Shown piece by piece: positions 4,193-31,098 of a stretch of DNA of 32,647 nucleotides. Made by a program: the position numbers and the translations under genes. Location of the stretch: the IMG/VR virus record IMGVR_UViG_3300045742_000129, positions 1 to 32,647 of that record, one strand, 5' to 3'. Source of the stretch: a virus. The first letter of the stretch is position 1. Each line of letters starts with the position of its first letter. The notes beneath the pieces were generated by a model. It ran no database searches. It saw only the letters and a program-made list of their open reading frames with translations, and was not told where the DNA came from.

Positions 4193-4446
4193 TAGTCCCT
4201 TGCCCTGCGTCGGCGTGCTTCCCTGCGTCGCTCCTCTTGGTCGAGGCCGCCCCAGATGCCGAACCGTTCACCGTTGTGGATGGCTTCATCCAGGCAATCG
4301 CTTCGCACTTGGCAGTTGGCGCAGATCGCCTTGGCTTGGTTTGCTTGGACCTGAGAGCGCTCAGGGAAGAACAGGTGGATGTCCTCGCCTAGACAGGCTG
4401 CATCATCTCGCCAGTCACCGAGTTGCTTCGCTCTGCGCCCGGCCAT
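4189..4446 (-). CDS. WhiB-family iron-sulphur transcription factor (1)
   Basis: 85 residues with the four WhiB cysteines C18, C42, C45 and C51 (C-X23-C-X2-C-X5-C), the GIWGG turn at 63-67 and a basic Arg-rich tail (72-83). WhiB proteins bind a [4Fe-4S] cluster and usually act by contacting the host sigma factor region 4, so this gene may redirect host transcription. It is the last gene of a minus-strand operon starting at the promoter near 5572. It begins 3 bases after the preceding stop, with AAGGAATGAGGC ahead of the ATG. A second copy lies at 21226. The WhiB call is secure. Confidence 0.92.
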   Translation of the reverse strand: MAGRRAKQLGDWRDDAACLGEDIHLFFPERSQVQANQAKAICANCQVRSDCLDEAIHNGERFGIWGGLDQEERRREARRRRARDY

Positions 4447-9470: not shown

Positions 9471-11555
9471 GTGCCGCGTTCTGGTCCGCTTCGCCGAGTT
9501 GAACTGACCCAGGGGAGCAACTTGGCGAACTTCGCCATGCGCTCCCCCGCCGCATCCGCGCACGCCACCACTGCCGCCCTGACCAAGATCGGGGAGATCA
9601 AGTCCCTCTACGGTTCGGTCGAGGCGTGGCAGCGTGATGCCTTCGGGTACTACGAGATCATCGGCGAGGTAGGATACATCATCGGTGTGACGGCCAACAC
9701 CGTTGCCGCTTGCGACATCCGGCCGATCGAGGTGAGCAACGAGGTTGCCCCCGGTGGATGGAAGGTCACGAGCGACGAGCGCGTGCTCCGGGTCTGGGAC
9801 GCCCTGGAAGCCCCCCGTGGCGGCAAGCAGGAGTTGTATCGCAAGGCAGCGAACCATCTGCAGATCGCTGGGGAGTCCTACCTCGTCGGGTCTGACTTGA
9901 TGGACGAGTTCGGGCGTGAGGCTGGGATCGCCTGGGAGTTCCTCTCTCCCGAGGAGATCCGCGTGGAGGGTGGTGGCCGCACCGTCAAGCGCAACTACGG
10001 GGGATACGGCGGTCAGCAGATCGAGGAACTCGACCCCAAGAAGAACTACATCGCTCGGCTCTGGCGTTCAGACCCGCGGTTCGCCAACCGTCCCGACTGC
10101 GCCCTCAAGCACGTCCTGCCCATCTGTCGGGAGGTCGTGGTCCTCACGCAGTTGGTGGACGCTATCGCCAAGTCCCGCCTCTCGGCTGGGATCTTGTTCG
10201 TCCCCGACGAGATGTCCTTCGGCCCCTACGACGAAACCGAGGATGACAGCGACGACACCGATGACGTTGATCCGTTCACCGAGGAGTTGATCGATCACCT
10301 GACTGCCCCGGTGGAGGATCGCACTTCGGCCGCCTCGCTTGTCCCACTCATCCTGCGTGGTGCTGCCGACTTCGCCGACAAGGTGAAGTTGATCGATGTC
10401 GCTCGCGACTTGAATGTCCTCTACATGGATCTGCGCCAGGAGGCCATCGGTCGCCTGGCCACCGGCATGGACATCCCGCCGGAGATCATGACCGGCAAGG
10501 GTGGCCTGAACCACTGGACTGGCTACAACATCGATGCTGACTTCATCTCCAAGCACGTCGCCCCGCTCGGCGACATGCTGGCGGACTTCCTGACCACGGC
10601 CTACTTGCGGCCGATGCTGGTCGAGTTCGAGGGGATGACCGAGGACGAGGCGTCCGAGTATCGGCTCTACTTCGATGCCAGCCCGATCACCTCTCGCACC
10701 GACACCGGACCGAATGCTCGTGCGGCCTTCGATCGCCACGAACTCTCCCGCTTGGCCTACCTGCGCGAGAACGGCTTCGATGAGTCCGATGCCCCCACCG
10801 AGGAGGAGCGCCAAGAGCGCGACCTGCGGATGCTCATGGAGTCCGAGCCGATCATCTTCGGACCGCAGATCATGGGGATGCTCTACCCCGAGTTGGCTGG
10901 TGTCATCGACATCTGCGAGGTGGAGTGCGCTCCCACCGGCGGGGATTCGCTCATGCCGGATGCCGGTCAGGACACCGAGAACCCGTCCAACCTCCCAGCG
11001 CGAAAGAAGAACACCGGCCCGTCAACGCGGCCCGTCATCGACAACGAGACGGGACAGGACGAGCCTTCCCCGCGCGGCCCGGCGGGACCGCGCGCTGACG
11101 AGACGATCATCGATCGACTGGCGACCGGAGCCGACGCCGCCTTGGAGCGTGCCCTTGAGCGCGCCGGAAGTCGCATCCTCTCCAAGATGAGTGGACAGCA
11201 CATCTCGATGAAGGATCGGTTCCGCTCAACCTCCAAGGACCAGATCATCTCCGGGTTGAGTGAGGCCGAGATGTCTCAACTCGGCCTGTCCATGACCGAC
11301 CTGTTCGTCGGTGCTTGGGAGAACCTTGGTGTTCGGAGCAAGGGCTGGCTGAGGCAGCACTTCATCGAGCGTGGGTGCGACAGTCTCGTGGCCGACGAGA
11401 AGGCAGCCATGGTCGTGAACGCCTTGATCCCGCTCCTTGAGATCCGCGCCACTTCGGCGATGCAGCATCCGGTCGTCCTTGGCAACAACGGCCTGCGTAT
11501 CCCAACGGAGATGATCGAGCAGGCATTCGCTCAGCACGAGAGGATTCCAGAATGA
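9471..11555 (+). CDS. phage portal protein
   Basis: 694 residues from GTG 9471 (GAGAGAGG ahead). The core matches actinophage portals. It has an N-terminal helix with EAWQRDAFGYYEIIGEVGYIIG (51-72), a wing region with FLSPEEIRV (158-165), an R-W-P-type ARLWRSDPRFANRPD (195-209), and a later helix with IGRLATGMDIPPEIMTGKGGLNHWTGYNID. An acidic insertion (254-268) follows FVPDEMSF. The C-terminal 150 residues are an extra helical tail. The portal forms the dodecameric ring at the capsid vertex for DNA entry and exit. The terminase that normally precedes it is not in the window; the protease follows with an ATGA overlap. The upstream region has no copy of the early-type promoter in this direction. 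Confidence 0.88.
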   Translation: MPRSGPLRRVELTQGSNLANFAMRSPAASAHATTAALTKIGEIKSLYGSVEAWQRDAFGYYEIIGEVGYIIGVTANTVAACDIRPIEVSNEVAPGGWKVTSDERVLRVWDALEAPRGGKQELYRKAANHLQIAGESYLVGSDLMDEFGREAGIAWEFLSPEEIRVEGGGRTVKRNYGGYGGQQIEELDPKKNYIARLWRSDPRFANRPDCALKHVLPICREVVVLTQLVDAIAKSRLSAGILFVPDEMSFGPYDETEDDSDDTDDVDPFTEELIDHLTAPVEDRTSAASLVPLILRGAADFADKVKLIDVARDLNVLYMDLRQEAIGRLATGMDIPPEIMTGKGGLNHWTGYNIDADFISKHVAPLGDMLADFLTTAYLRPMLVEFEGMTEDEASEYRLYFDASPITSRTDTGPNARAAFDRHELSRLAYLRENGFDESDAPTEEERQERDLRMLMESEPIIFGPQIMGMLYPELAGVIDICEVECAPTGGDSLMPDAGQDTENPSNLPARKKNTGPSTRPVIDNETGQDEPSPRGPAGPRADETIIDRLATGADAALERALERAGSRILSKMSGQHISMKDRFRSTSKDQIISGLSEAEMSQLGLSMTDLFVGAWENLGVRSKGWLRQHFIERGCDSLVADEKAAMVVNALIPLLEIRATSAMQHPVVLGNNGLRIPTEMIEQAFAQHERIPE

Positions 11556-14500
11556 GCCCGTCCTGGCCCCCGCGCGGTATCGAGGCTGCTGCTCGTCGCC
11601 TCAAGGCTTCCTATGCTGCCGATCAACCCAACTTCTCCAACGGGATCATGGCGTGCGTGCGCCCCAATGAACCGGGGCGGTTCATCATTGAGGGCGGCAC
11701 CCCGGCCGACGATCTCCATGTGACGCTGGCGTACTTCGGCTCCATCGAGGATGACGAGTGGACCGAGAGCGCCCGCGAGCAGATCGCCGAAGTGATGTCG
11801 GCTGAGGTCGCTCGCGAGTTCGACCCGATCAACGGCGAGATCACCGCGGTCACCACCTTCGATCTTGCTGGGGAGGAGGAGCCGCCTCTCGTCCTACTCA
11901 TCGATGCCCCCGGCCTCGGCCGGATGCGCGATGCCCTGGTTCGTCGTGTCGATGCCTCTCTCGGCGAGGGCCAGGAGATCAAGAAGAACCACGACTTCAT
12001 GGCCCACATGACCCTGGCCTACGGGGCCACCGACGAGGAGATGGCCTTCGCCAAGAGCCTCGTTGGGGAGAAGGTTCGCTTCGATGCGGTCGAGTTGGTG
12101 TGGGGCGATGAGTCCTCGGTATGGCCCTTCGAGGGAAGTTCTGGTAGCCCGATCCCTGACTCTGGGGATGAGAACGGGCTACGATTTGGTGACACCTTCA
12201 CCGAGTTCGGCCCCGAGGAGGGTGACTCAATGCCTTACGAGATCGTGGAAGATCATCCTGACTGCGACGGCTACGGCGTCGTGAAGTCTGAGGACGACGA
12301 ACTGATGGGCTGCCATGAGTCCGAGGATGCTGCTCTCAAGCAGATCGCCGCGCTCGACGCCGCCGAGGCCGAGGATCAGGCGGACGACGAGGCTGAGGCC
12401 GCCGTTGACGCCGACCCGTTGGCCATCGTGATCGCTGACGAGTTGACCACCGAGGAGCGTCTCTCCGCGGTGGAGGAGTTCCTGGCTGCCCAGAAGGGCG
12501 GCTCAGGTGGTGGCGGGGCCGATGATGAGGATGGTCTGGACGAAGGACCTCCTGATGGCGTGATTGAGGATGCCGACAACGAGGGTGGCGAGGAGTTCGG
12601 CGCCATTGCCCCTCATGACACCCCGACGACCGATGCCCCTTGGGACGGACCCGCGGCCGAGAAGAACGTGCGCTCCGGTGAAGGCCGTTCCTACTTCGAC
12701 AACATCTACGCCTACTACGACGACGGCAAGGACGAGAGCGTCAAGGCGTCCTACCGCTTCATCCACCATGAGGTTGATGCAGAGGGTGCCCCTGGTGCCG
12801 CCAACCTGCGTGCCTGCTCGACTGGCATCGGCGTTCTCAACGGCGGACGCGGCGGGACCACCATCCCGGCCGACGCCAGGGAGGGTGTCTACCGGCACCT
12901 GGCCTCCCACCTGCGTGACGCCGACAAGGAGGCCCCCGAGTTGATGGGCGCCGACCCCGAGGAACTGGCGGACGCCTTGGAGGAGATGGCCAATGAGGCC
13001 GCTTCTTCGTTCAAGGCCCTGCCCTCCCACAGCAGCCCGACCGTCAACCCCCCCACCTTCGAGGGCTGGGATGGCAACGAGGTCAAGAAGCGCACCCGTT
13101 CGGGTGAAACCGAGTCGTACTACGGCAAGATCTACGCCTGGCGCGATTCTCAGGCCGACCCGACGAACAAGACCGCCTACAAGTTCCCGCACCACAACGT
13201 CAGCCCCGACGGAACCCCCGGCGCCGCTGTCATGTGGGCCGTTCACTCGGCCATCGCCGTGATCGATGACTCCACCATCCCGACGGGTGACTACCAGGGT
13301 GTCTACAACCACCTGGCCAAGCACCTCCGCGACGGTGGGATCGAGGACATCCCTGAGTTGGGAGAGGACAACGCATCCGTCGAGGAGGTCCGGGCCGCCA
13401 TCGCAAGTGTGCGGACCAAGTACCTCTCGATGGTCGAGGAGGCCGCCATGAGCGCCGCAGACATCTCTGGTGCCGATGACACCGCCCTCGTGGGCGAGGT
13501 CGTGCGCCGCTGGTTCGAGTCCGTCGCCGCCAACAAGGGCGTCGAGGCTGCCGAGGCCGAGGCCGAGGCCGAGGTTGAGTTCGCTGCTGACGAGGCAGCG
13601 ACCGACTGCCCCTGCCACAAGGGCGTGCTCGAAGATGGAGCCACTCACGCCGAGGGCTGCCCGTTCGCCCACCACGATGAGGACGAGATGGCCGAGGGCG
13701 ACGGAGAGGACGCCCCCGAGGTTGACGCCCCTGAGGACGAGGAAGATGTCGTTGGCGACTTCGCCAGCAATGACTACGAGTGGGAAGGCGTCCTCATCGT
13801 TGAGGGTCTGCCTTCCGGCGACGGACGCATGATCGATGAGGAGGCGCTGACCTGGCGTGACCTCCCGGTCCCGCTCATGCTGCAGACGATCAACGCTGCG
13901 GGGCATGACGGCGCCGTCATCGCTGGCTCGATCCACGAGATCGAGCGCAAGGGACACGAGATCATCGGACGCGGCAACTTCGACTCCGGCAAGGATGGCC
14001 AGGAGGCCAAGCGCCTGCTGACCGAGGGCACCATGCGTGGGGTGAGCGCCGACATCGATTCGGTGAGCGCTGAACTGCGTGGCCCTGATGGCGCCGACGT
14101 GGCGATGGAGGACATCATCTTCGGCGATCCGCCCGAGGGTGTCATGGAGGTCCTGACCGGCGGCCGCATCATGGGTGCCACGATGACCCCCTTCCCCGCG
14201 TTCCAAGAGGCTCAACTCCACGTCATCGGCACCGAGGCTCAGGCCGAGGATCTGGTGCTGGTTGCGTCTGGCTCCACCGCCAACGGCGAGGTCTGGCGCT
14301 TCACCAGCCCGTACCCCCTTGTGGCCCGTGGTCAGGAGCCGGTGGCCATCGATCACAGCCTGGTCGCTTCGGCTGCCAGCGCCACGGTCACCGAGTTGCC
14401 GGTCATCCCGGTGCACCCGCCGCTGGCGTGGTTCGCTGCTGAGGACGAGGAACTCGATCCCAACATGGCCTTCAAGGTGTTCCCGAACGGGCGCATCTAC

Positions 14501-15244
14501 GGCTTGGTCGCTCGCTGGGGAACCTGCCACATCGGCTTCGCCGACCGTTGCGTCCCCGTGCCGCGGCCCCACGATGGCTACGCCACCTTCCGCGGTGGGC
14601 ATGTTCTGACGGCTGAGGGAACGCTGGTCAGCACCGGACCCATCTACGCCGACACCGTGCACCCCAGCCTCAAGATGAGTGCCAGTGACGCTCAGGCGTT
14701 CTATGCTCACACGGGCTGCGCTCTGGGTGACGTGGTGCTCTACGAGGGCGAGTTCGGCATCCTGGCGGCTGGTGCCGTCAAGTCCGATGCCCCCATCGAG
14801 GCCGTCAACCGCCTCCGTGCGGCCGGAGTATCGCCTGACTGGCGGACCATCGATCGCAACCTTGAGATCGTTGGCCTCCTGTCGGTGAACGTCTCCGGCT
14901 TCCCGGTCAAGGCGCTTGCTGCCTCGGCTGGCGAGGGTGATGAGGACATCTTCAAGGACTCGATCAACCCGGTCGAGGGCGGCACCCCGCGCTACGCCTG
15001 GTCCGGCAAGGACGAGCAGTTCAATTCGCTCGTGGCCGCTGGATCGCTGGTTCCGTGCGCGACGTGCGGGCAGTCCTCGGTGAGCGATCAGACCGCTCTG
15101 GCCATCCTCGACCTGCTCAACAAGCAGCAGGCTCAGATCGATGAACTCACGACGGTCATCCGTCCGTACCGCATGGAGCAGATGGCGGCCAAGATGGCTG
15201 AACTCGGCTTCGGAGTGGCGTCGGACAGCATCAAGGAGTCCTGA
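11552..15244 (+). CDS. 2H phosphoesterase / head maturation protease fusion
   Basis: 1230 residues. Residues 50-192 are a 2H-phosphoesterase domain with the two His-x-Thr signatures H56-V-T58 and H152-M-T154. Residues 227-270 start MPYEIVEDHPDCDGYGVV, a small domain often attached to phage head proteins. Residues 371-458 and 511-596 are two related repeats (Y-F-HH, A-G-NL or AVMWAV, I-VYNHL--HLRD). Residues 742-895 are an HK97-type prohead protease with candidate catalytic H785 (AAGHDGAV) and S832 (GVSADID). Residues 955-1120 are the actinophage protease tail (AWFAAEDEELDP, WGTCHIGF, VNVSGFPVKAL). Acidic linkers join the parts. It should mature the procapsid. The 2H domain may act on cyclic-phosphate RNA or nucleotides. 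Unusually long for the family. Confidence 0.85.
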   Translation: MSPSWPPRGIEAAARRLKASYAADQPNFSNGIMACVRPNEPGRFIIEGGTPADDLHVTLAYFGSIEDDEWTESAREQIAEVMSAEVAREFDPINGEITAVTTFDLAGEEEPPLVLLIDAPGLGRMRDALVRRVDASLGEGQEIKKNHDFMAHMTLAYGATDEEMAFAKSLVGEKVRFDAVELVWGDESSVWPFEGSSGSPIPDSGDENGLRFGDTFTEFGPEEGDSMPYEIVEDHPDCDGYGVVKSEDDELMGCHESEDAALKQIAALDAAEAEDQADDEAEAAVDADPLAIVIADELTTEERLSAVEEFLAAQKGGSGGGGADDEDGLDEGPPDGVIEDADNEGGEEFGAIAPHDTPTTDAPWDGPAAEKNVRSGEGRSYFDNIYAYYDDGKDESVKASYRFIHHEVDAEGAPGAANLRACSTGIGVLNGGRGGTTIPADAREGVYRHLASHLRDADKEAPELMGADPEELADALEEMANEAASSFKALPSHSSPTVNPPTFEGWDGNEVKKRTRSGETESYYGKIYAWRDSQADPTNKTAYKFPHHNVSPDGTPGAAVMWAVHSAIAVIDDSTIPTGDYQGVYNHLAKHLRDGGIEDIPELGEDNASVEEVRAAIASVRTKYLSMVEEAAMSAADISGADDTALVGEVVRRWFESVAANKGVEAAEAEAEAEVEFAADEAATDCPCHKGVLEDGATHAEGCPFAHHDEDEMAEGDGEDAPEVDAPEDEEDVVGDFASNDYEWEGVLIVEGLPSGDGRMIDEEALTWRDLPVPLMLQTINAAGHDGAVIAGSIHEIERKGHEIIGRGNFDSGKDGQEAKRLLTEGTMRGVSADIDSVSAELRGPDGADVAMEDIIFGDPPEGVMEVLTGGRIMGATMTPFPAFQEAQLHVIGTEAQAEDLVLVASGSTANGEVWRFTSPYPLVARGQEPVAIDHSLVASAASATVTELPVIPVHPPLAWFAAEDEELDPNMAFKVFPNGRIYGLVARWGTCHIGFADRCVPVPRPHDGYATFRGGHVLTAEGTLVSTGPIYADTVHPSLKMSASDAQAFYAHTGCALGDVVLYEGEFGILAAGAVKSDAPIEAVNRLRAAGVSPDWRTIDRNLEIVGLLSVNVSGFPVKALAASAGEGDEDIFKDSINPVEGGTPRYAWSGKDEQFNSLVAAGSLVPCATCGQSSVSDQTALAILDLLNKQQAQIDELTTVIRPYRMEQMAAKMAELGFGVASDSIKES

Positions 15245-18846: not shown

Positions 18847-18867
18847 ACAGTAGCAATCCCCTGTGAC
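18847..18867 (-). promoter_or_regulatory. phage promoter P5 (minus, leaderless)
   Basis: Minus strand: GTCACAGG, 7 bases, TACTGT; the ATG at 18838 is 8 bases downstream. It is back-to-back with P6. Confidence 0.7.
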
Positions 18868-18875
18868 GAATCCTC

Positions 18876-18896
18876 GTCACACCCATAGGGTATGGT
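18876..18896 (+). promoter_or_regulatory. phage promoter P6
   Basis: GTCACACC, 7 bases, TATGGT, full match. It feeds the RNA ligase gene, whose leader carries AAAGGAGG. Confidence 0.9.
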
Positions 18897-18922
18897 TCTT
18901 GCCCACGACGAAAGGAGGCACC

Positions 18923-20020
18923 ATGATCGACCTGCACGCGCTGTTCCATCCCAACGAGATCACCGAGGCGCTCGACCTGGGCCATCTGCTGTCCCAGACG
19001 CACCCCGAGTTCGATCTGACGATCTACAACTACTCGTCGCTGTGCCAGATCAGCCGTGCCTGGACTCCCGTGACCTCGGCGTGCCGTGGCCTCATCGTGG
19101 GTCCCGACAACAAGGTGATCGCACGGCCCTTCCCCAAGTTCTTCAACCACACCGAGACGGCCGTCCCCAAGTTCGCCCTGACTACTCCGCCCGTCGTGAC
19201 GGAGAAGATGGACGGGTCGTTGGGCGTGATCTACAAGCGCCCCGACGGTCGTTACGCCGTGTCCACCCGTGGCTCGTTCGCGAGCGATCAGGCCATCTGG
19301 GCCTCTGGTTGGCTGGCATCGATGATGCCCCTGTTCACCCAGCCTGATGGCGTGACCACCTTGGTCGAGATCATCTACCCCGAGAACCGGATCGTCGTGG
19401 ACTACGGCGACCGCGCGGAGTTGGTGTTGCTCGGCGCCATTGACATCGCCACCGGAGCGGACATCCCCCTGTGGGAGATCGACTGGTGGCCAGGCGCCCG
19501 CACCGAACAGCACGTCGGTCTTGGTGGCATGGATGAGGTGCATCGCCACATCATGGAATCGAACCGAGACGGCGATGAGGCCGAGGGCATCGTCGCTGTG
19601 TGGTACAAGCCTGGCCAGCCTTCGTTCCGGCTCAAGGTCAAGAGCACTGACTACGTTCGGCTCCACCGGATCATCACGGGCATCAACACCAAGCGCGTGT
19701 GGGAGGTGCTGGCCCAGGGCGGCGACTTCTACGACGTGCTCGATCGTGTCCCTGACGAGTTCTACGGCTGGGTGAAGGGTGTCATCGCGGATCTCCGCAA
19801 CCAGTACCAGGCGATCGAGGACGCTGCCTACGAGCAGTTTGCGATCATCTGCCTCAACACCGACGACGGCGACCGCAAGGGCTTCGCCGAGAAGGCCAAG
19901 AAGTCGCCCTACCCCGGCCTGATGTTCGCGTTGCTGGACGGCAAGAACATCGAGCCGACCATCTGGGCGATGATCAAGCCGAAGGCCGAGAAGCCGTTCG
20001 CCAACGGCGAGGAGGCGTGA
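18923..20020 (+). CDS. RNA ligase, T4 Rnl1-like
   Basis: 365 residues from ATG 18923 (AAAGGAGGCACC ahead). Nucleotidyltransferase motifs: R55 in CRGLIVG, motif I EKMDGSLG with the adenylated Lys95, a GAID strand near 171, motif IV EGIVAVW (221-227) and motif V RLKVKSTDY (236-244). The C-terminal 110 residues are the helical domain that gives Rnl1-type ligases substrate preference. It seals 3'-OH to 5'-phosphate RNA ends using ATP. With the Pnkp-like gene at 20318 it makes a complete T4-type tRNA repair pair, classically used against host anticodon nucleases. It lies directly behind tRNA array 1. Confidence 0.9.
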   Translation: MIDLHALFHPNEITEALDLGHLLSQTHPEFDLTIYNYSSLCQISRAWTPVTSACRGLIVGPDNKVIARPFPKFFNHTETAVPKFALTTPPVVTEKMDGSLGVIYKRPDGRYAVSTRGSFASDQAIWASGWLASMMPLFTQPDGVTTLVEIIYPENRIVVDYGDRAELVLLGAIDIATGADIPLWEIDWWPGARTEQHVGLGGMDEVHRHIMESNRDGDEAEGIVAVWYKPGQPSFRLKVKSTDYVRLHRIITGINTKRVWEVLAQGGDFYDVLDRVPDEFYGWVKGVIADLRNQYQAIEDAAYEQFAIICLNTDDGDRKGFAEKAKKSPYPGLMFALLDGKNIEPTIWAMIKPKAEKPFANGEEA

Positions 20021-20265
20021 TGGCCCTGTGGCTCTTGCACCCGAAGAAGCCATGGGGCGAGTGGGATGTCGTCAACGGATTCGTTGTCCGTGCTGGCTCC
20101 GAGGCGCAGGCCCGAGGAATCGCTCAGGCTCGCGCCGGAGATGAGAAGTGGTGGGGCCACTCTGGCGTTAAGGAGGCGTGGCTCTGCCCAGACACCACCA
20201 CCTGCGAGCGCCTCTCGGCGAATGGCGACCCTGGCGTCATCTTGCGGGACTTCCAGGGGGGTTGA
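20020..20265 (+). CDS. hypothetical protein
   Basis: 81 residues; ATG overlaps the ligase stop by one base.  It is rich in Trp (MALWLLHPKKPWGEWDVVNGFVV) with a RAGSEAQARGIAQARAGDE helix, and predicted alpha/beta. I have seen similar small phage proteins without function. No motif for catalysis. Co-transcribed with the ligase. Confidence 0.6.
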   Translation: MALWLLHPKKPWGEWDVVNGFVVRAGSEAQARGIAQARAGDEKWWGHSGVKEAWLCPDTTTCERLSANGDPGVILRDFQGG

Positions 20266-20268
20266 CAC

Positions 20269-20289
20269 GTCACACCGTTGTGCTACTAT
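20269..20289 (+). promoter_or_regulatory. phage promoter P7
   Basis: GTCACACC, 7 bases, TACTAT, with TTGACA just upstream (20262). Feeds the kinase-phosphatase gene, whose leader has GAGAGGAGG. Confidence 0.85.
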
Positions 20290-20317
20290 CACCGCACACG
20301 ACAGAGAGGAGGCCACC

Positions 20318-21175
20318 ATGGCCAAGTTGATTGCAACCCGAGGGCTGCCCGCATCGGGCAAGTCCACCTGGGCGTTGGCAAAGATTGCCAAGCGACCCGG
20401 CCAGACGATCCGCGTGAACCGCGATGACCTGCGCGCCTCAGTGCACGGCGGGGGCAAGTGGAGCAAGGCCAAGGAGCGCATCATCACGGTGATGCGTGAC
20501 GCCATGATCCACGAGGGCCTCGCGAGTGGCCTCACGGTCATCTCCGACGACACCAACTTGTCGCCGAAGGTGGTAGAGCACCTCCGCACGCTGGCCAAGG
20601 CCAACGGCGCCGAGTTCGAGATCGAGGACTTCACCGACGTGACGCCGGAGGAGTGCATCAAGCGCGACCTCGCTCGGGATCGAACCGTCGGCTCCGACGT
20701 GATCATGCGGATGTTCAACGACCACCTCAAGCCGGACACCACGGTGACGGTGGACGAGCGCCTTCCCAAGTGCATCATCGTGGACGTGGACGGCACGCTG
20801 GCCCTTCACGTCAGCCGCGGCCCCTTCGAGTACGAGAAGTGCTTGGAGGATGCTCCCAACCCTCGCGTGGTCGAGATCATCAAGATGCTCAAGGGCACCT
20901 ACGAGATCGTCGTCTGCTCGGGCCGCGAGGGCACCGAGCAGTGTCACGGCGACACGGTGGAGTGGCTGCACCGCCACGGCATTACCTACTCGGCCTTCTT
21001 CATCCGCCCCGAGGGCGACACGAGGAAGGACTCGATCATCAAGCGCGAGATCCTTGAGCGGGACATCCTCCCGCGCTGGAACCCCGTGCTGGTGGTTGAC
21101 GACCGTGATCAGGTCGTGAGGATGTGGCGTGACGCTGGCCTGCCGTGCTGGCAGGTTGCCGACGGCGCTTTCTGA
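20318..21175 (+). CDS. polynucleotide 5'-kinase / 3'-phosphatase (T4 Pnkp-like)
   Basis: 285 residues from ATG 20318. Kinase half: P-loop GLPASGKST (9-17), RDDLR (35-39, D36) and a lid with KRDLARDRTVG. Phosphatase half: DVDGTLA (156-162, HAD nucleophile), SGREGTEQ (201-208), a KDSIIKREI basic helix and VVDDRDQVVRMW (259-270). The domain order matches T4 polynucleotide kinase. It removes 2',3'-cyclic or 3'-phosphate and adds a 5'-phosphate at cut tRNA ends so the neighbouring ligase can seal them. Own promoter P7. A secure call. Confidence 0.93.
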   Translation: MAKLIATRGLPASGKSTWALAKIAKRPGQTIRVNRDDLRASVHGGGKWSKAKERIITVMRDAMIHEGLASGLTVISDDTNLSPKVVEHLRTLAKANGAEFEIEDFTDVTPEECIKRDLARDRTVGSDVIMRMFNDHLKPDTTVTVDERLPKCIIVDVDGTLALHVSRGPFEYEKCLEDAPNPRVVEIIKMLKGTYEIVVCSGREGTEQCHGDTVEWLHRHGITYSAFFIRPEGDTRKDSIIKREILERDILPRWNPVLVVDDRDQVVRMWRDAGLPCWQVADGAF

Positions 21176-21181
21176 GTGCGG

Positions 21182-21223
21182 CCCCCTGTTGTGGCGTTGT
21201 AGATCGACTGCTACAACAGGGGG
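21182..21223 (+). promoter_or_regulatory. long hairpin covering the whiB ribosome site
   Basis: 14-bp stem with one G-T pair: 21182-21195 pairs with 21210-21223, loop of 14 bases. The 3' arm contains the GGGGG that lies just ahead of the ATG at 21226. Folding would hide the ribosome site; it may also end the kinase transcript, though no T tract follows. Confidence 0.7.
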
Positions 21224-21225
21224 TC

Positions 21226-21474
21226 ATGCACCAAGAGGCTCCTGAGTGGCAAGCGTTCGCCAACTGTCTGGGCTGCGACCCAGAGTTGTTCTTCCCAGCG
21301 AGGGGTGAGTCCACCAAGGAAGCCAAGGCTGTGTGTGCTGGTTGCGAAGTGCGTCTCGAATGTCTCGCCGGACACCTCTACGAGAAGCATGGCATCTGGG
21401 GCGGCATGAGCGAGCGTGAGCGCAGGGTCCTGCGGAGGCAGCGCGCTCGTGGTGTCGCTGTGGTCGTTGGTTAG
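21226..21474 (+). CDS. WhiB-family iron-sulphur transcription factor (2)
   Basis: 82 residues from ATG 21226. Cluster cysteines are C14, C37, C40 and C46, the turn is GIWGG (56-60), and the tail RERRVLRRQRARG is basic. Like the first WhiB it should bind [4Fe-4S] and act on host transcription. An upstream in-frame GTG or ATG would place the start inside a strong hairpin. The hairpin in front of the gene suggests translational control. The end overlaps the convergent ATPase gene by 4 bases. Confidence 0.9.
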   Translation: MHQEAPEWQAFANCLGCDPELFFPARGESTKEAKAVCAGCEVRLECLAGHLYEKHGIWGGMSERERRVLRRQRARGVAVVVG

Positions 21475-25940: not shown

Positions 25941-25946
25941 GTGGCC

Positions 25947-26639
25947 ATGAACGTCATCCTCCAAGGGGTCGTCGGCTCCACTGCCTACGGCCTCGCTACC
26001 CCTGAGTCCGACATCGACCGCCTCGGCGTGTTCCAGGCCCGCACCTCTGAGTTGCTGGGCCTGCACCCGCCGAAGGAATCGCGCGTCGGCCACAACCCCG
26101 ACATCACCCACCACGAGTTGGGCAAGTTCGTCAAGTTGTGCCTGGCCAACAACCCCACGGTGATGGAGTTGCTGTGGCTCGATGAGTACGAGGTCATGAC
26201 TCGGAGGGGTGAGGATCTCATTGCCATCCGTGACCACTTCCTCTGCCAGCGCATCCGCAAGACCTACGGCGGCTACGCCACCCAGCAGAAGGAGCGTCTC
26301 AAGCGCCGAGAGGAGGACGAGCCTGGCGCCGGGTTCTCCTCGGACCTCAAGAAGCGAACCGAGAAGCACGGCCGCCACTGCCACCGCCTCATCCTGCAGG
26401 GCGCCTGGGCGCTTCGTCATGGCGTGTTGAGGGTACGGCTCTCGGAGTCCGAGGTGGACTACTGCCGCGCCGCCGGGCGCCTCGCCGCTTCCGATGTGGA
26501 CGCCTTCTGCGCCATGACCGATGAGGCCATGGAGGAGTTCGACGCCATCGAGTCGGACCTCCCCGAGAAGCCCGACGAGGCCATCGTTGAGCGTCTCCTG
26601 CTCATCGCCCGCACCACCGACATCGGCAGGGTCGGATGA
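25947..26639 (+). CDS. RlaP-like predicted nucleotidyltransferase (COG3541)
   Basis: 230 residues from ATG 25947; an upstream GTG at 25941 would lie directly on the -10 box. N-terminal pol-beta motif QGVVGSTAYGLATPESDIDRLGVF: GS at 10-11 and the metal Asp pair D22/D24. EVMTRRGEDLIAIRDHFLC and a C-terminal helical part follow. This COG3541/YcgL family is known from RNA ligase gene neighbourhoods (RlaP) as a predicted RNA end-modifying nucleotidyltransferase. Its coupling to thg1 (ATGA overlap) and the nearby ligase/Pnkp support a role in tRNA repair. Activity not known. Confidence 0.78.
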   Translation: MNVILQGVVGSTAYGLATPESDIDRLGVFQARTSELLGLHPPKESRVGHNPDITHHELGKFVKLCLANNPTVMELLWLDEYEVMTRRGEDLIAIRDHFLCQRIRKTYGGYATQQKERLKRREEDEPGAGFSSDLKKRTEKHGRHCHRLILQGAWALRHGVLRVRLSESEVDYCRAAGRLAASDVDAFCAMTDEAMEEFDAIESDLPEKPDEAIVERLLLIARTTDIGRVG

Positions 26640-27394
26640 AGGACGAACTCGGCGACCGCTTCAAGGCGATCGAGCACGCGTACCGTCCCGTTCTGCCTCG
26701 GCGCGGGTTCGCTGTCGTGCGCGTGGATGGGCGCGCCTTCCACAGTTGGACCAGGGGCTTGGACAAGCCGTTCTCTCCGCAGTTCATCACTGCGATGGAC
26801 GCCACCGCTCGGAAGTTGTGCGAGGGGTTCTCTGGCGCCTTGTGCGCCTATGTGCAGTCCGATGAGATCAGTCTCGTGCTCACCGACCTGATCGGCGAGA
26901 ACACCGAGCCTGAGTTCGGCTGGCGTCTCCCCAAGTTGATCTCGTTGGCCGCGTCCGAAGCGACCGCCGAGTTCAACCGGCACTGGTTCGATCGCTCTGT
27001 CGCTACCTTCGACGCTCGGGCCTTCCCCCTGGCGACCGTGGAGGACGTGGCCGACTACCTCCGGTGGCGGCAAGACGATGCTCGACGCAACGCTGTGTCG
27101 ATGCTGTCGCACCACTGGCTCGGCAAGAAGGCTGTGCACGGTGTTGGCACGCGCCAACGGGTTGACCTTCTGGCCGAGATGGGGGTCCTCGTGGACGAAC
27201 AGGACCGCGGCTTCACTCAGGGCCGCATCGCTCACCCCGAGAAGCGCATGGAGACGGTGACCTACACCCGGAAGGACGATGGCACCGAACACTCGATTGA
27301 GGCCGAGCGCACGCACTGGATCGTGGAGCCGTCCGAGTTCATCCGCAACTGGTTCTACGATCAGCACGCGGAGAGGTTCGCCGAAACCTCTTGA
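26636..27394 (+). CDS. tRNA-His guanylyltransferase-like protein (Thg1/TLP)
   Basis: 252 residues. RVDGRAFHSWTRGLDKPF (29-46, metal D31) and YVQSDEISLVL (72-82, D76 E77) are the Thg1 catalytic motifs. ATFDARAFPLATVEDVADYLRWRQDDARRNAVSMLSHH follows and is also diagnostic. Thg1-like proteins add nucleotides 3'-to-5' on tRNA 5' ends, either G-1 of tRNA-His or repair of damaged ends. In bacteria they act mainly as repair enzymes. Here it follows the RlaP-like gene with an ATGA overlap and precedes tRNA array 3. Secure family call; the substrate tRNA is open. Confidence 0.93.
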   Translation: MKDELGDRFKAIEHAYRPVLPRRGFAVVRVDGRAFHSWTRGLDKPFSPQFITAMDATARKLCEGFSGALCAYVQSDEISLVLTDLIGENTEPEFGWRLPKLISLAASEATAEFNRHWFDRSVATFDARAFPLATVEDVADYLRWRQDDARRNAVSMLSHHWLGKKAVHGVGTRQRVDLLAEMGVLVDEQDRGFTQGRIAHPEKRMETVTYTRKDDGTEHSIEAERTHWIVEPSEFIRNWFYDQHAERFAETS

Positions 27395-27564: not shown

Positions 27565-27640
27565 CGCGGCTGGGTGAAACGGTTTCCACGCCTGGCTCAT
27601 AACCAGGAGACATCGGGTTCAACTCCCGTAGCCGCCACCA
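27565..27640 (+). tRNA. tRNA-fMet(CAT)
   Basis: C1 faces C72 (mismatch), as initiator tRNAs lack a 1:72 pair; acceptor pairs GCGGCT/AGCCGC below it. Anticodon stem CCTGG/CCAGG with loop CTCATAA, T loop TTCAACT, A73, CCA. The three G-C pairs of the usual initiator stem are only partly present. Confidence 0.75.
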
Positions 27641-27643
27641 ACC

Positions 27644-27692
27644 TGGGTCCCGACCACTCCGAGCCGCGACGCTCGTGGGTGGCGGGAACCCA
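27644..27692 (+). ncRNA. stem-closed spacer RNA (G)
   Basis: TGGGTCCCG (27644-27652) pairs with CGGGAACCCA (27683-27692), one bulge, followed inside by CCAC/GTGG and GAGC/GCTC helices: a long imperfect hairpin between tRNA-fMet and tRNA-Ala(TGC). Confidence 0.45.
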
Positions 27693-27700
27693 TCTTCCCT

Positions 27701-27774
27701 GGGGCAGCATGTACCAAGGCTGGCGACAGTGCTTTGCAAGCACCGTGAGGTGGGTTCGATTCCCTCCTGCTCCA
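27701..27774 (+). tRNA. tRNA-Ala(TGC)
   Basis: Acceptor GGGGCAG/CTGCTCC with the Ala identity pair G3-T70, anticodon helix GTGC/GCAC with loop TTTGCAA, A73; CCA not encoded (CTG). Reads GCA/GCG. Confidence 0.92.
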
Positions 27775-27806
27775 CTGCAGCAAGATCACTTGCGAGCAAT
27801 CGATCA

Positions 27807-27819
27807 TTGACAACTGAAT
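27807..27819 (+). promoter_or_regulatory. boxA-like element 2
   Basis: TTGACAACTGAAT, followed by AGG, resembling rRNA leader boxA of actinobacteria. A GCAAG-ATCA-CTTGC hairpin lies 14 bases upstream (27780-27793), as boxB precedes boxA in rrn leaders. It overlaps the left arm of the inverted repeat. Confidence 0.65.
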
Positions 27820-27827
27820 AGGTCTAT
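27813..27827 (+). repeat. left arm of 15-bp inverted repeat around tRNAs
   Basis: ACTGAATAGGTCTAT, the exact reverse complement of 29331-29345. It lies 2 bases before tRNA-Ala(GGC). Confidence 0.9.
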
Positions 27828-27829
27828 AT

Positions 27830-27901
27830 GGGGCACGCGCGTTGGGTTCGCACCCGACCCTGGCAGGGTTGGTCCGCTCGGATCGTCACCGAGGTGCTCC
27901 A
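27830..27901 (+). tRNA. tRNA-Ala(GGC), unusual T loop
   Basis: Acceptor GGGGCAC/GTGCTCC with G3-T70, anticodon stem CGACC/GGTTG with loop CTGGCAG, T stem CTCGG/CCGAG. The T loop is ATCGTCA rather than TTCGANT. A73, CCA not encoded. Reads GCC/GCT. Slightly less certain because of the T loop. Confidence 0.72.
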
Positions 27902-27905
27902 CTGT

Positions 27906-28036
27906 GAAGAAGGCCGACGGACAAGGCTTTGGCCCGTGAGGTCATGCCGAAGGTGGGAGGTACTTGTGACCGCTCGTACCACCAGAAGTGCGACCAAGCC
28001 GGGGTGGGTAGCGAGTGGTCGAGTCCTTCTTCGCCA
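27906..28036 (+). ncRNA. tRNA-like RNA with CCA end, no cloverleaf (A)
   Basis: A perfect 7-bp acceptor-like stem GAAGAAG (27906-27912) / CTTCTTC (28026-28032) followed by G73-like G and CCA. The interior is 113 bases with helices GGTCA/TGACC, GGTAC/GTACC and CGACC/GGTCG, but no standard D, anticodon or T arm. It fills exactly the gap between tRNA-Ala(GGC) and tRNA-Gly(TCC) with 4 and 1 spare bases, as a tRNA would. Novel RNA or a disrupted tRNA. Confidence 0.5.
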
Positions 28037-28037
28037 T

Positions 28038-28112
28038 GCAGATGAAGCCGAACAGGTGAGGTACCAGGCTTCCACCCTGGGGAAGCGGGTTCGAGTCCCG
28101 CCATCTGCTCCA
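28038..28112 (+). tRNA. tRNA-Gly(TCC)
   Basis: Acceptor GCAGATG/CATCTGC, anticodon stem CCAGG/CCTGG with loop CTTCCAC, T loop TTCGAGT, T73, CCA. Reads GGA/GGG. Confidence 0.95.
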
Positions 28113-28113
28113 A

Positions 28114-28223
28114 CGACAGGGAGAACCGGACAGCCACCCCTCTGCTCAGTGTGCGAGCACGGGAAACGAGGCCGGACTAAAGATCCTGTCGGGGGCCATC
28201 GGCAGCACACCCCCGATGGCCCC
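28114..28223 (+). ncRNA. stem-closed spacer RNA plus strong hairpin (B)
   Basis: CGACAGG (28114-28120) pairs with CCTGTCG (28185-28191), enclosing 64 bases. An 11-bp perfect hairpin, 28192-28202 with 28213-28223 (GGGGCCATCGG arm), follows directly. No T tract follows, so not a standard terminator. Lies between two Gly tRNAs. Confidence 0.5.
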
Positions 28224-28228
28224 ACCTT

Positions 28229-28303
28229 GCGGCCAAGGTCTAGATGGCGAGACACCTGCTTGCCATGCAGGAGAGCGGAGTTCAAGTCTCCGTGGCCGCT
28301 CCA
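28229..28303 (+). tRNA. tRNA-Gly(GCC)
   Basis: Acceptor GCGGCCA/TGGCCGC, anticodon stem CCTGC/GCAGG with loop TTGCCAT, T73, CCA. Reads GGC/GGT. Confidence 0.95.
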
Positions 28304-28304
28304 A

Positions 28305-28382
28305 GTGCCTCAGGTGTCCGTTGGATCGGCACATCGGTTTGAAACGCCGAAGGGCTGGGTTCGAGTCCCAGGGGGCACACCA
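28305..28382 (+). tRNA. tRNA-Phe(GAA)
   Basis: Acceptor GTGCCTC/GGGGCAC, anticodon stem TCGGT/GCCGA with loop TTGAAAC, A73, CCA. Confidence 0.92.
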
Positions 28383-28385
28383 CCT

Positions 28386-28461
28386 GCACGGGTGGCCAAG
28401 ATGGAAAGGCACCTCTTTCACACAGAGGAAATCGTGGGTTCGAGTCCCACTCCGTGCACCA
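28386..28461 (+). tRNA. tRNA-Val(CAC)
   Basis: Acceptor GCACGGG/TCCGTGC (G7-T66), anticodon stem CCTCT/AGAGG with loop TTCACAC, A73, CCA. Reads GTG. Confidence 0.94.
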
Positions 28462-28462
28462 A

Positions 28463-28539
28463 GCGCCAGTGCCCGAGCGGCCAAAGGGGGCGGCCTGCAA
28501 AGCCGTAATTCGTGGGTTCAAATCCCACCTGGCGCTCCA
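28463..28539 (+). tRNA. tRNA-Cys(GCA)
   Basis: Acceptor GCGCCAG/CTGGCGC, anticodon helix CGGC/GCCG with loop CTGCAAA, T73 (as Cys tRNAs have), CCA. Confidence 0.95.
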
Positions 28540-28558
28540 ATCGAGAACTCCACCCGCT

Positions 28559-28684
28559 GGCACTCAGGGGTGACACACCACCAGCCAAGCGCTTGGTCGG
28601 TGGTCGAGTAACAGGGACCCAGGGCTACCCGTCGGTCGGCGCCGACCGACGGAGACGCTCCTGCTAGGAACCCTACTGAGTGCC
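28559..28684 (+). ncRNA. multi-helix spacer RNA (C)
   Basis: GGCACTCAG (28559-28567) pairs with CTGAGTGCC (28676-28684). Inside are ACCACC (28577-28582) / GGTGGT (28599-28604) capped by CCAAGCGCTTGG, and a perfect 24-base palindrome at 28629-28652 (arm CCGTCGGTCGGC). The 149-base gap between tRNA-Cys and tRNA-Ile holds no ORF or tRNA; this structure fills most of it. A folded RNA of unknown function is likely. Confidence 0.55.
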
Positions 28685-28688
28685 TCAA

Positions 28689-28763
28689 CCGCAGGTAGCA
28701 CGGTCTGGTTAGTGCGGCGTCCTGATACGGCGCTGGTCGTGGGTTCAAATCCCACCCTGCGGA
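28689..28763 (+). tRNA. tRNA-Ile(GAT)
   Basis: Acceptor CCGCAGG/CCTGCGG, anticodon stem GCGTC/GGCGC with loop CTGATAC, A73; CCA not encoded (CTA). Reads ATC/ATT. Confidence 0.92.
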
Positions 28764-28767
28764 CTAG

Positions 28768-28832
28768 CCCCGCTCGCGAGGGGTTGCTGCGAACGTGAGA
28801 TGCAGCGGGGACCGGGGGTTCGACCCCGGCAC
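28768..28832 (+). ncRNA. stem-closed spacer RNA (D)
   Basis: CCCCGCT (28768-28774) pairs with AGCGGGG (28804-28810), followed by A-CC, then a 6-bp hairpin CCGGGG-GTTCGA-CCCCGG. The GTTCGA looks like a T loop, but no acceptor can be paired with it. Its GGGGTTGCTGC segment recurs in RNA E. Between tRNA-Ile and tRNA-Val(GAC). Confidence 0.4.
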
Positions 28833-28870
28833 CCTGGGTGGGGACTCCGACGGGGGTCCACTCACGACAA

Positions 28871-28947
28871 CCACGAGTGGCCAAGTCCGGTAAGGCACCT
28901 CCATGACACGGAGGAAAGCGCAGGTTCAAATCCTGCCTCGTGGACCA
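28871..28947 (+). tRNA. tRNA-Val(GAC)
   Basis: Acceptor CCACGAG/CTCGTGG, anticodon stem CCTCC/GGAGG with loop ATGACAC, A73, CCA. Reads GTC/GTT. Confidence 0.93.
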
Positions 28948-28948
28948 T

Positions 28949-29023
28949 TGCGCTGAGGCCGATTGGCGAGGCAACTCCCTCATAAGGAGTCCGTAGAGGG
29001 TTCGATTCCCTCCGGCGCGACCA
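28949..29023 (+). tRNA. tRNA-Met(CAT) (or Ile2)
   Basis: Acceptor TGCGCTG/CGGCGCG with a T1-G72 wobble, anticodon stem ACTCC/GGAGT with loop CTCATAA, A73, CCA. CAT may be elongator Met or, if lysidinylated, Ile for ATA; the leader 3 codon set (internal ATG, no ATA) favours Met. Confidence 0.85.
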
Positions 29024-29024
29024 A

Positions 29025-29099
29025 GCACCCGAGGTGTAGATGGCGACACGCAGCCATGGTAAGGCTGAGAGCAGGGTTCAAGTCCCTGCGGGTGCTCCA
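29025..29099 (+). tRNA. tRNA-Thr(GGT)
   Basis: Acceptor GCACCCG/CGGGTGC, anticodon stem CAGCC/GGCTG with loop ATGGTAA, T73, CCA. Reads ACC/ACT. Confidence 0.94.
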
Positions 29100-29104
29100 A
29101 TCCA

Positions 29105-29179
29105 GTGAGGTGCCCCTAGCCGCGAGGCGGGGGTCGAGGGGGTTGCTGCAGCGGCCCCCGAGTTACGACACCTCACCCA
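29105..29179 (+). ncRNA. tRNA-like RNA with His-type end, no cloverleaf (E)
   Basis: GTGAGGTG (29105-29112) pairs fully with CACCTCAC (29169-29176), then CCA. Read as tRNA this is G-1 paired with C73 plus a 7-bp acceptor, the hallmark of tRNA-His. The interior has a GNRA-capped hairpin (CCCC, GCC-GCGA-GGC, GGGG) and a second GC hairpin (GGGGG with CCCCC) instead of D, anticodon and T arms; no GTG anticodon exists. It ends one base before tRNA-Thr(CGT). Confidence 0.5.
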
Positions 29180-29180
29180 T

Positions 29181-29251
29181 GCACCACCCTGACGGCAGGA
29201 CTCCTCATTCGTACCGAGGAAGGCGGGGTTCGAGTCCCCGGTGGTGCTCCA
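29181..29251 (+). tRNA. tRNA-Thr(CGT), short D arm
   Basis: Acceptor GCACCAC/GTGGTGC; the D stem CCTG-ACGG-CAGG follows at once, without bases 8-9. Anticodon loop TTCGTAC with an A31-C39 mismatch, T73, CCA. Reads ACG. Confidence 0.82.
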
Positions 29252-29345: not shown

Positions 29346-29367
29346 AGTCCAGCCCAGAGGAGACATC

Positions 29368-30004
29368 ATGCGAGTTGAGATCCGTCCCGGTGAGGGAGGT
29401 GACGACGCCTACCGCTTCGCCAAGGAGTGTCTTTGACGCTTTCCAGGCAGCGGCACGCCGACGTGGGATCAAGTCCAGCGTCGATGACTCAACTCGCACC
29501 ATGATCATGGAGGTCGCTGACACCTCCTTCCTCGAACCCTTCGTCGGCACTCATCGGGTCCAGCGCATCCCCAAGCGGTCGAGCGCTCGGCACACCTCGA
29601 CGGCCACCGTGGCCATCCTTGACGCTTCGGCGATCGAGGTCGATCCTCTCGATGAGAGCGATCTGGCCGAGCGCTACACCCGCGGCTCAGGCAAGGGCGG
29701 CCAGCACCGCAACAAGACGGACTCGTGTGTCGTACTGACACACGTCCCCACGGGGATCGAGGCTCGTGTCGATGGTCGCAACCAATGGCAGAACCGCCAG
29801 GAGGCTCGTCGCGTCCTGGCGAAGCGAGTGGCCGCGGTCGAGGTCGAGGAGGCGTTGCATATCCGCAACGGAGAGCGCAACGGCCAGATCGACTCCGAGC
29901 GGTCGGCCAAGTCCTTCACGCACAACACCCAGCGCGACGAGGTGGTAGACCACTCCACCGGGCGCTCATGGCGCCTGCGTGACTTCGCCAAGGGCAAGTT
30001 CTGA
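29368..30004 (+). CDS. peptide chain release factor with +1 programmed frameshift
   Basis: Translated as 29368-29433 joined to 29435-30004, giving 211 residues. ATG 29368 has AGAGGAG ahead. Frame 0 gives [14 protein letters not shown] and six more residues, then stops at CTT-TGA. A +1 slip continues with [11 protein letters not shown]. The join restores a class I release factor from domain 2 onward: [11 protein letters not shown] (RF EIRAGTGGDEA), [17 protein letters not shown], the catalytic [11 protein letters not shown] (GGQ at 110-112) and [10 protein letters not shown]. Domain 1 is absent, as in PrfH-type factors. The decoding tripeptide position reads PKR (68-70) instead of PxT or SPF. 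It probably releases peptides from stalled or damaged ribosomes, and may regulate itself through the UGA. Confidence 0.88.
29422..29437 (+). other. prfB-type +1 frameshift site
   Basis: AAGGAG (29422-29427), TGT, CTT, TGA, C. The SD-like hexamer, 3-base spacing, CTT slip codon, TGA stop and following C copy the bacterial RF2 recoding site (AGGGGG TAT CTT TGA C). Confidence 0.92.
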
Positions 30005-30069: not shown

Positions 30070-31098
30070 GTGGCGAAGAAGGAAAGCACCAAGCCTGCAG
30101 TTGGGGGCGGCCTCGACGCCGCCCTCACGCTGATCAACCGGCAGTACGGTGAGGGATCGATCTTCAACATGGGTGACGACTACCGGGTGGACATCGACAC
30201 GATCTCCACCGGAGCCTTCAACCTCGACGTGGCGCTCGATGCAGGCGGCCTTCCTCGCGGTCGCATCGTGGAGATCTACGGCCCGGAGTCCTCAGGCAAG
30301 ACCACGCTCGCCACCCACGTCATCGCTGAGGCTCAGAAGAAGGCCCTGACGTGTGCCTTCATCGACGTGGAGCACGCCCTCGACCCGACCTACGCCACGG
30401 CTATCGGCGTGGACATGGAGTCGCTGCTGGTGTCCCAGCCCGACACGGGCGAGGAGGCGTTGGAGATCACCGACATGCTGACCCGCTCCGGCGAGGTCGG
30501 CGTCATCGTCATCGACTCCGTGGCCGCCCTCGTGCCCCGCGCTGAGATCGAGGGCGAGATGGGTGACACCCATGTCGGCTTGCAGGCCCGCCTCATGAGC
30601 CAGGCGCTCCGCAAGTTGACCGGCTCGGCCTCCAAGACGCACACGCTCATCATCTTCATCAACCAGTTGCGCGAGAAGGTGGGCGTCCTCTACGGCTCCC
30701 CCGAGGTCACCCCTGGCGGGCGCGCCCTCAAGTTCTATGCCTCGGTGCGTCTCGACGTTCGGCGTCGCGACGCCATCAGCGAGGACGGCGAGAAGGTCGG
30801 CAATCTCACCAAGGTGAAGGTCGTCAAGAACAAGGTCGGCCGCCCCTTCCGTGAGGTGGAGTTCAACATCATCTACGGCAAGGGCATCGACTCCGACGTG
30901 TGCCTGATCGACCTCGCCGATGACCTCGGCGTGGTGAAGAAGTCCGGCGCCTGGTACTCGTTCAATGATGACCAACTCGGCCAGGGCAAGGTGAAGTCTG
31001 CGGAGTACCTCAAGGAGAACCCCGAGGTGCGCGAGGACATCAAGCGGTTCATCCACGCCGCTCTCAACGGCGGAGAACTTCCGGCGCCCGAGGAGTAG
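30070..31098 (+). CDS. recA: RecA recombinase
   Basis: 342 residues from GTG 30070 (GAAGGAG ahead). It contains [42 protein letters not shown] with Walker A at 71-79, the Walker B strand [24 protein letters not shown] and the L2-side [32 protein letters not shown]. The C-terminal domain is also complete, so it is full length. It catalyses strand exchange in phage repair and recombination with SSB. The sequence is divergent enough to be an old phage copy rather than a recent host gene, but that needs an alignment. Confidence 0.97.

Follow-up and report, generated by a model that had tools for sequence, protein, structure and literature searches.

A prfB-type shift site in a phage release factor gene

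We analysed a stretch of viral DNA of 32,647 nucleotides (IMG/VR virus record IMGVR_UViG_3300045742_000129, positions 1 to 32,647; hereafter the window), in which a plus-strand gene at 29368-30004 appears to encode a peptide release factor interrupted by an internal stop codon. The gene is preceded by a Shine-Dalgarno (SD) sequence, AGAGGAG (29356-29362), located 5 nt 5' of the ATG at 29368. Frame 0 (29368-29436) encodes 22 N-terminal residues, including the VEIRPGEGG segment of release factor domain 2, and ends at a TGA (29434-29436). Directly before this stop lie an internal SD-like stimulator, AAGGAG (29422-29427), a TGT spacer codon (29428-29430) that places the stimulator 3 nt 5' of the slip codon, and the slip site CTT TGA C (29431-29437), which comprises CTT at 29431-29433, the TGA and a C at 29437. 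An earlier reading made from the DNA letters (the sequence-only reading) had described the well-placed ATG, the release factor segment in frame 0 and the AAGGAG TGT CTT TGA C site, and this description proved correct to the base. The pattern RRGGRG-NNN-CTTTGAC occurs once in the window and in none of 100 shuffles, and no stable RNA structure was found downstream of the shift site (z 0.08).

In the +1 frame, reading would resume at GAC (29435) and continue uninterrupted to a terminal TGA at 30002-30004, through the remainder of domain 2, the stop-codon recognition loop (29558-29599) and, in domain 3, the GGQ catalytic motif (29696-29704). Joined at the slip codon, the two frames give a product of 211 amino acids that consists of domains 2 and 3 only. 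As had been proposed, the +1 frame completes a GGQ release factor, in which the Pfam PCRF and RF-1 domains both score above the Pfam cut-offs. Domain 1 is absent, the protein beginning at position 104 of the PCRF profile and at positions 108-116 of the RF1 profile. The joined protein matched solved RF1 chains with an E-value of 5e-28, and NCBIfam models scored it at 116-123 bits for RF1 (prfA, cut-off 400), 76 for prfB (cut-off 370) and 59 for PrfH (cut-off 167). The earlier description of the shift site as a copy of the RF2 autoregulation site stands, the site being of the RF2 type, although the protein itself is nearer to RF1 (123 versus 76 bits).

The recognition loop of the window protein lacks the SPF motif of RF2, and the PxT motif of RF1, which most members of the wider family have, is absent across the window clade. 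In this clade the loop (IPKG/IPKR...HTS) is two residues shorter than that of RF1 and does not allow stop specificity to be predicted. At the first-base contact the protein has GG (within PGEGGDDA), and it has no SxY motif. A predicted structure of the 192-residue +1 part left the packing of the domains uncertain (predicted TM-score 0.43). The best reading of these sequence features is that the phage product would be a class-I peptide release factor that lacks domain 1 and is most similar to RF1.

The nearest relatives share 73% (L001), 71% (L008), 63% (L002), 52% (L097) and 51% (L082) identity with the window protein. All five use the same ATG, reach the site after an equal number of codons and carry CTT TGA C in the same place, and CTT precedes the stop in six of six members of the window clade; the stimulator is weaker in L008 (CAGGAC). 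Against relatives, the ratio of nonsynonymous to synonymous substitution rates (dN/dS) was 0.08-0.21 for the frame-0 open reading frame (ORF) and 0.14-0.16 for the +1-frame ORF, and pairwise values within the clade were about 0.1-0.2 on both sides of the stop. Because the nearest relatives keep the site, with low dN/dS both upstream and downstream, a sequencing error is excluded: neither an error at 29434 nor an uninterrupted frame, the two outcomes that the sequence-only reading had named as speaking against it, was found in these five relatives. In addition, a tmRNA gene (L097:915-1297) precedes the gated release factor of L097 by about 1.7 kb.

A family of interrupted release factor genes

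We collected the wider family by profile searches that included genome contigs, followed by classification with three-frame hidden Markov models. Counts rest on the best 80 loci per profile scan, with queries built from each gene type, and matches in 'Listeria/Staphylococcus phage' records were left out of them. The one record of this kind inspected, L476 (labelled Enterococcus phage), has a long RF1 with no interruption and gives the impression of bacterial contamination. The resulting non-redundant set comprises 195 members that lack domain 1; 194 are viral and one, L404, comes from a metagenome-assembled bacterial bin. Interruptions are found in 186 of the 195, with 75 genes requiring a +1 shift, 111 carrying one or more in-frame stops and 9 being open, a ratio of in-frame-stop to shifted genes that is not a population estimate. 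Clustering at 70% identity left 119 members (56 shifted, 55 in-frame and 8 open).

Genes of this family occur in many large phages, and several published huge-phage genomes show the same designs: LR745208 carries CGGAGGGGT-CTT-TGAC, an in-frame TGA is found in LR745206, LR756501, LR756502 and LR756504, and LR756511 has an open gene. A DNA-level search of named phages found nothing. In each of 17 phage records tested, the only PF00472 match was the gene itself, although these records may be fragments. By comparison, long bacterial prfA genes examined with the same profile were uninterrupted in 78 of 78 cases, and none of 55 phage genes from a separate set encoding the RF-1 domain only had an internal stop; four apparent stops in the latter set fall on the first aligned positions, ahead of the probable start codon. 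We also noted a distant release factor homologue (26% identity) in the Prevotella Lak megaphages, for example at 333180-333836 of MK250029.

The sequence-only reading had suggested looking for the same site elsewhere in phages, and CTT stands immediately 5' of the stop in all 75 shifted genes (56 of 56 after clustering at 70%), although this codon makes up 1.1% of the codons in these genes. The stop itself is TGA in 59 genes, TAG in 14 and TAA in 2, and C follows TGA in 41 of the 59. SD-like pairing of -5 kcal/mol or lower was present at 85% of the shift sites, compared to 15% of random positions in the same genes (p about 1e-30) and 3% of in-frame stops; it is strong at a spacing of 0-3 nt and declines past 4 nt. 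What comparison of the sequences establishes is the site, its conservation, a specific slip codon with its stimulator, and purifying selection on both sides of the internal stop, dN/dS between close pairs being 0.03-0.25 upstream as well as downstream. Separately, tRNA-Lys genes (anticodons CTT/TTT) lie upstream of the gated release factor in L003, L004, L005, L006 and L089, where they are the sole tRNAs called.

In-frame stops and turnover of the gate

In most members with in-frame stops there is a single interruption, a UGA at codon 36 that follows a Gly codon (GGY TGA) and stands exactly at a conserved Trp of RF1 (L007, L011, L013, L019, L225-L308 and others). This exact coincidence suggests readthrough by tRNA-Trp, and the codon is probably read as Trp. 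A member translated in this way gave a predicted fold with a pLDDT (predicted local distance difference test) of 88 and a TM-score of 0.83 to ribosome-bound RF1. Another set has its UGA or UAG some 10 codons farther on, frequently with CTN next. Two in-frame UGAs are present in one clade (L107, L331, L336, L339, L326, L330, L335, L329, L086, L138, L191 and L378), the second often being UGA-CTA or UGA-CTG.

Since the contigs bearing in-frame stops use UGA as a stop and keep TGG (among 156 long ORFs, which together contain 752 TGG codons, 39 terminate at TGA), we rejected a changed genetic code. Likewise, a test for suppressor tRNAs revealed no general association of such tRNAs with gated genes: tRNAs with a CTA anticodon lie near four two-UGA members (L326, L329, L331 and L336) and in L121, and a TCA anticodon was called once, in L273. 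A tRNA-Trp (CCA) gene directly adjoins an in-frame-UGA release factor gene, before or after it, in two cases (L014:2891-2965 and L094:1511-1587).

We placed the family in a tree with bacterial RF1 as the outgroup, using SH-aLRT (Shimodaira-Hasegawa-like approximate likelihood ratio test) support from a quick search; this support is weak for many of the inner branches. Against bacterial RF1, the viral rows fall into a single supported group. The tree requires 13 changes among the shifted, in-frame and open states and, among the shifted rows, 13 changes of stop codon. Near neighbours recode the same spot differently (L091 and L404, L088 and L106), and L121 lies inside an in-frame clade. Position varies as well: alignment column 39 holds the slip codon for most of the family, and column 38 the residue that precedes the UGA in the main in-frame group; the slip codon of the window clade comes about 15 codons earlier in the protein. 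This turnover, in which the gate is kept while mechanism, stop codon and position change, provides the strongest evidence that selection acts on the internal stop itself.

Proposed mechanism and alternative explanations

We consider it likely that the window gene codes for a class-I release factor of the phage and that its internal stop acts as a gate, allowing synthesis of the factor when termination there is slow. A ribosome arriving at CTT TGA C would either terminate, leaving a dead product of 22 residues, or slip by +1 on CTT and make the 211-residue factor. In the latter case the P-site tRNA-Leu would move from CUU to UUU, assisted by pairing of AAGGAG with 16S rRNA, and reading would resume at GAC (29435). 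Slow termination at UGA would favour the slip, so that a shortage of release capacity, such as might arise if phage translation titrates host RF2, would lead to synthesis of the factor. In other family members the gate would be readthrough of an in-frame UGA, probably as Trp. We infer from the sequences that recoding takes place in infected cells, that the rate of termination is sensed and that the product releases peptides at stop codons.

Several observations weigh against this proposal. The SD-like element is missing at nine shift sites, and several open members branch early in the tree, indicating that the gate is not universal. The yield of the window site may also be low in an actinobacterial host, since in Mycobacterium smegmatis shifting at the prfB cassette of Bacillus reaches only about 6.6% (PMC12421855). 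Finally, simple self-feedback misfits most of the UGA-gated members, because factors with PxT are not expected to read UGA.

What the gate senses is a separate question. We lean towards a family of widespread small phage release factors in which the gates are interchangeable (a CTT shift at UGA, UAG or UAA, or an in-frame UGA read as Trp) and sense termination capacity in general instead of acting as an RF2 thermostat. In UGA-gated members with PxT, feedback would be indirect, the factor taking UAA and thereby freeing RF2 for UGA, unless it reads UGA in some unrecognised way; in members gated by UAG or UAA it could be direct.

Less probable, though it retains a real share of our confidence, is classical autoregulation as in prfB, in which the phage factor would read its own gating stop (UGA in the window) and so limit its own synthesis. 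The cassette is the same as that of prfB, the UAG and UAA gates within a PxT-bearing family would permit direct feedback, and the lack of PxT in the window clade would make UGA reading possible there. Against this, most UGA-gated members carry PxT together with the RF1 glutamine (HRxQR), which predicts reading of UAA and UAG, and the gate stop does not track the recognition motif across the family. The proposal in the sequence-only reading that the phage senses slow termination at UGA is accordingly supported insofar as full-length product would depend on slow termination, but self-feedback through UGA reading is uncertain, given that most of the family has PxT, that the window clade has neither recognition motif and that 16 of the 75 shift sites use UAG or UAA.

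We regard as unlikely that the cassette provides a fixed set-point, holding a potentially harmful release factor at a constantly low level without any sensing. RF2 overexpression is toxic to both E. coli and B. subtilis (PMC12421855), and the fact that any weak recoding signal would suffice could account for the mixture of mechanisms. A weak start site would, however, be a simpler way to the same end, and the repeated placement of a stop codon in the gene points to termination as the sensed step, without proving it.

It is very improbable that the locus instead does without recoding and encodes a short peptide plus a separate C-terminal protein translated from its own start. Although TTG and GTG codons occur upstream of the site in the +1 frame of the window, L004, L006 and L018 have no +1-frame start codon there, and an ATG lies between the site and HRxQR in just 17 of 75 shifted and 6 of 111 in-frame-stop genes. 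The break also falls inside a compact domain: in the predicted structure the in-frame stop lies between a helix and a strand of domain 2, and two separate products would therefore make no domain. Moreover, independent starts leave the invariant CTT and the SD spacing unexplained. Sequencing error, pseudogene formation or a changed code, which would fit a gene broken in one frame and nothing else, is already refuted for the family by the recurrence of this break across many independent contigs and published huge-phage genomes, by low dN/dS, and by the use of TGA and TGG noted above.

Genomic context and probable host

An array of 13 tRNA genes (27565-29251, plus strand) lies directly upstream of the release factor gene and ends with tRNA-Thr CGT (29181-29251); the whole window has 30 tRNAs, 9 of which were also called by Rfam. 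The next gene downstream is recA (30070-31098, plus strand). The window further encodes an RNA-repair and tRNA kit (80-631, 18863-20020, 20066-21175, 25941-26639 and 26636-27394) whose members are a PTH2-type peptidyl-tRNA hydrolase, a T4-type RNA ligase, a polynucleotide kinase-phosphatase, RlaP and the tRNA-His guanylyltransferase Thg1, and a termination factor fits within this translation and RNA-repair kit. Directly after a portal-like gene, an ORF of 1230 amino acids (11552-15244) has an N-terminal 2H phosphoesterase domain of the 2'-5' RNA ligase superfamily.

The host is probably an actinobacterium, since the window contains two genes for WhiB transcription factors (4189-4446 on the minus strand and 21145-21474 on the plus strand), WhiB is present in three of five window-clade relatives, and the relatives of the portal protein are overwhelmingly from actinophages.

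Relation to known recoded release factor genes

The principle of recoding a release factor gene is already known from bacterial prfB and from giant viruses of amoebae. In a survey of 8,164 genomes, the prfB cassette consists of an SD-like hexamer, three bases, CTTT and then C, with TGA as the shift stop in 98.6%, TAA in 1.4% and TAG in 0 of 8,164 (PMC12421855). The window gene resembles prfB in its SD-like element 3 nt before CTT, in CTT TGA C and in the early location of the site within a class-I gene, but it is viral, RF1-like and without domain 1, and its site is inside domain 2. In the phage family, furthermore, the stop may be UAG (14 of 75) or UAA (2 of 75), and a sister group uses an in-frame UGA. 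The same survey found the prfB frameshift absent in all 2,658 Actinomycetota covered and no programmed frameshift in bacterial prfA (PMC12421855); the window phage thus has a cassette that the prfB of its likely host phylum has lost.

The class-I factor of Mimivirus and Megavirus is likewise a viral gene with recoded stops for which autoregulation has been proposed (PMC3521657). That factor is, however, of the eukaryotic/archaeal eRF1 type, belongs to amoeba viruses and combines readthrough and frameshifting in one gene, whereas the phage genes are RF1-like, use one mode or the other and carry the bacterial SD-assisted cassette. Like PrfH, the window protein is a GGQ factor of similar size without domain 1; PrfH carries an SxY motif, has GP as its first-base contact and always follows an rtcB-type gene (PMC1586002), while the window protein has GG, no SxY and tRNA genes directly upstream. 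RF1 is nearest by profile and fold, and most of the phage family shares its PxT, but the phage gene is interrupted and lacks domain 1, and the window clade lacks PxT. The PCRF domain (domain 2) distinguishes the window protein from ArfB and other factors with the RF-1 domain only.

The sections of the huge-phage study covered here list release factors 1 and 2 among the genes of these phages and contain no mention of their recoding (PMC7162821). In the open-licence literature we found no description of this phage family, of gating in RF1-like genes, of UAG gates or of an in-frame UGA in a bacterial-type release factor gene; an earlier report may exist outside that literature. According to a 2016 review, RF2 genes with an early in-frame UGA were not known, and neither was the corresponding UAG in RF1 genes (PMC5009743).

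Genes gated in this way will be truncated or missed by gene callers. Neighbour pairs that recode the same spot differently make it testable whether the sensed quantity is the factor itself, RF2 or termination in general, and, through the window clade, the cassette is present in phages of a phylum that no longer has it in prfB and in which ribosomes make poor use of it. Taken together, RF1-like genes with in-frame UGA interruptions and with shifts gated by UAG are both represented in this phage family, which, if our reading is true, includes the in-frame UGA design that was once considered for RF2 genes and never found there (PMC5009743).
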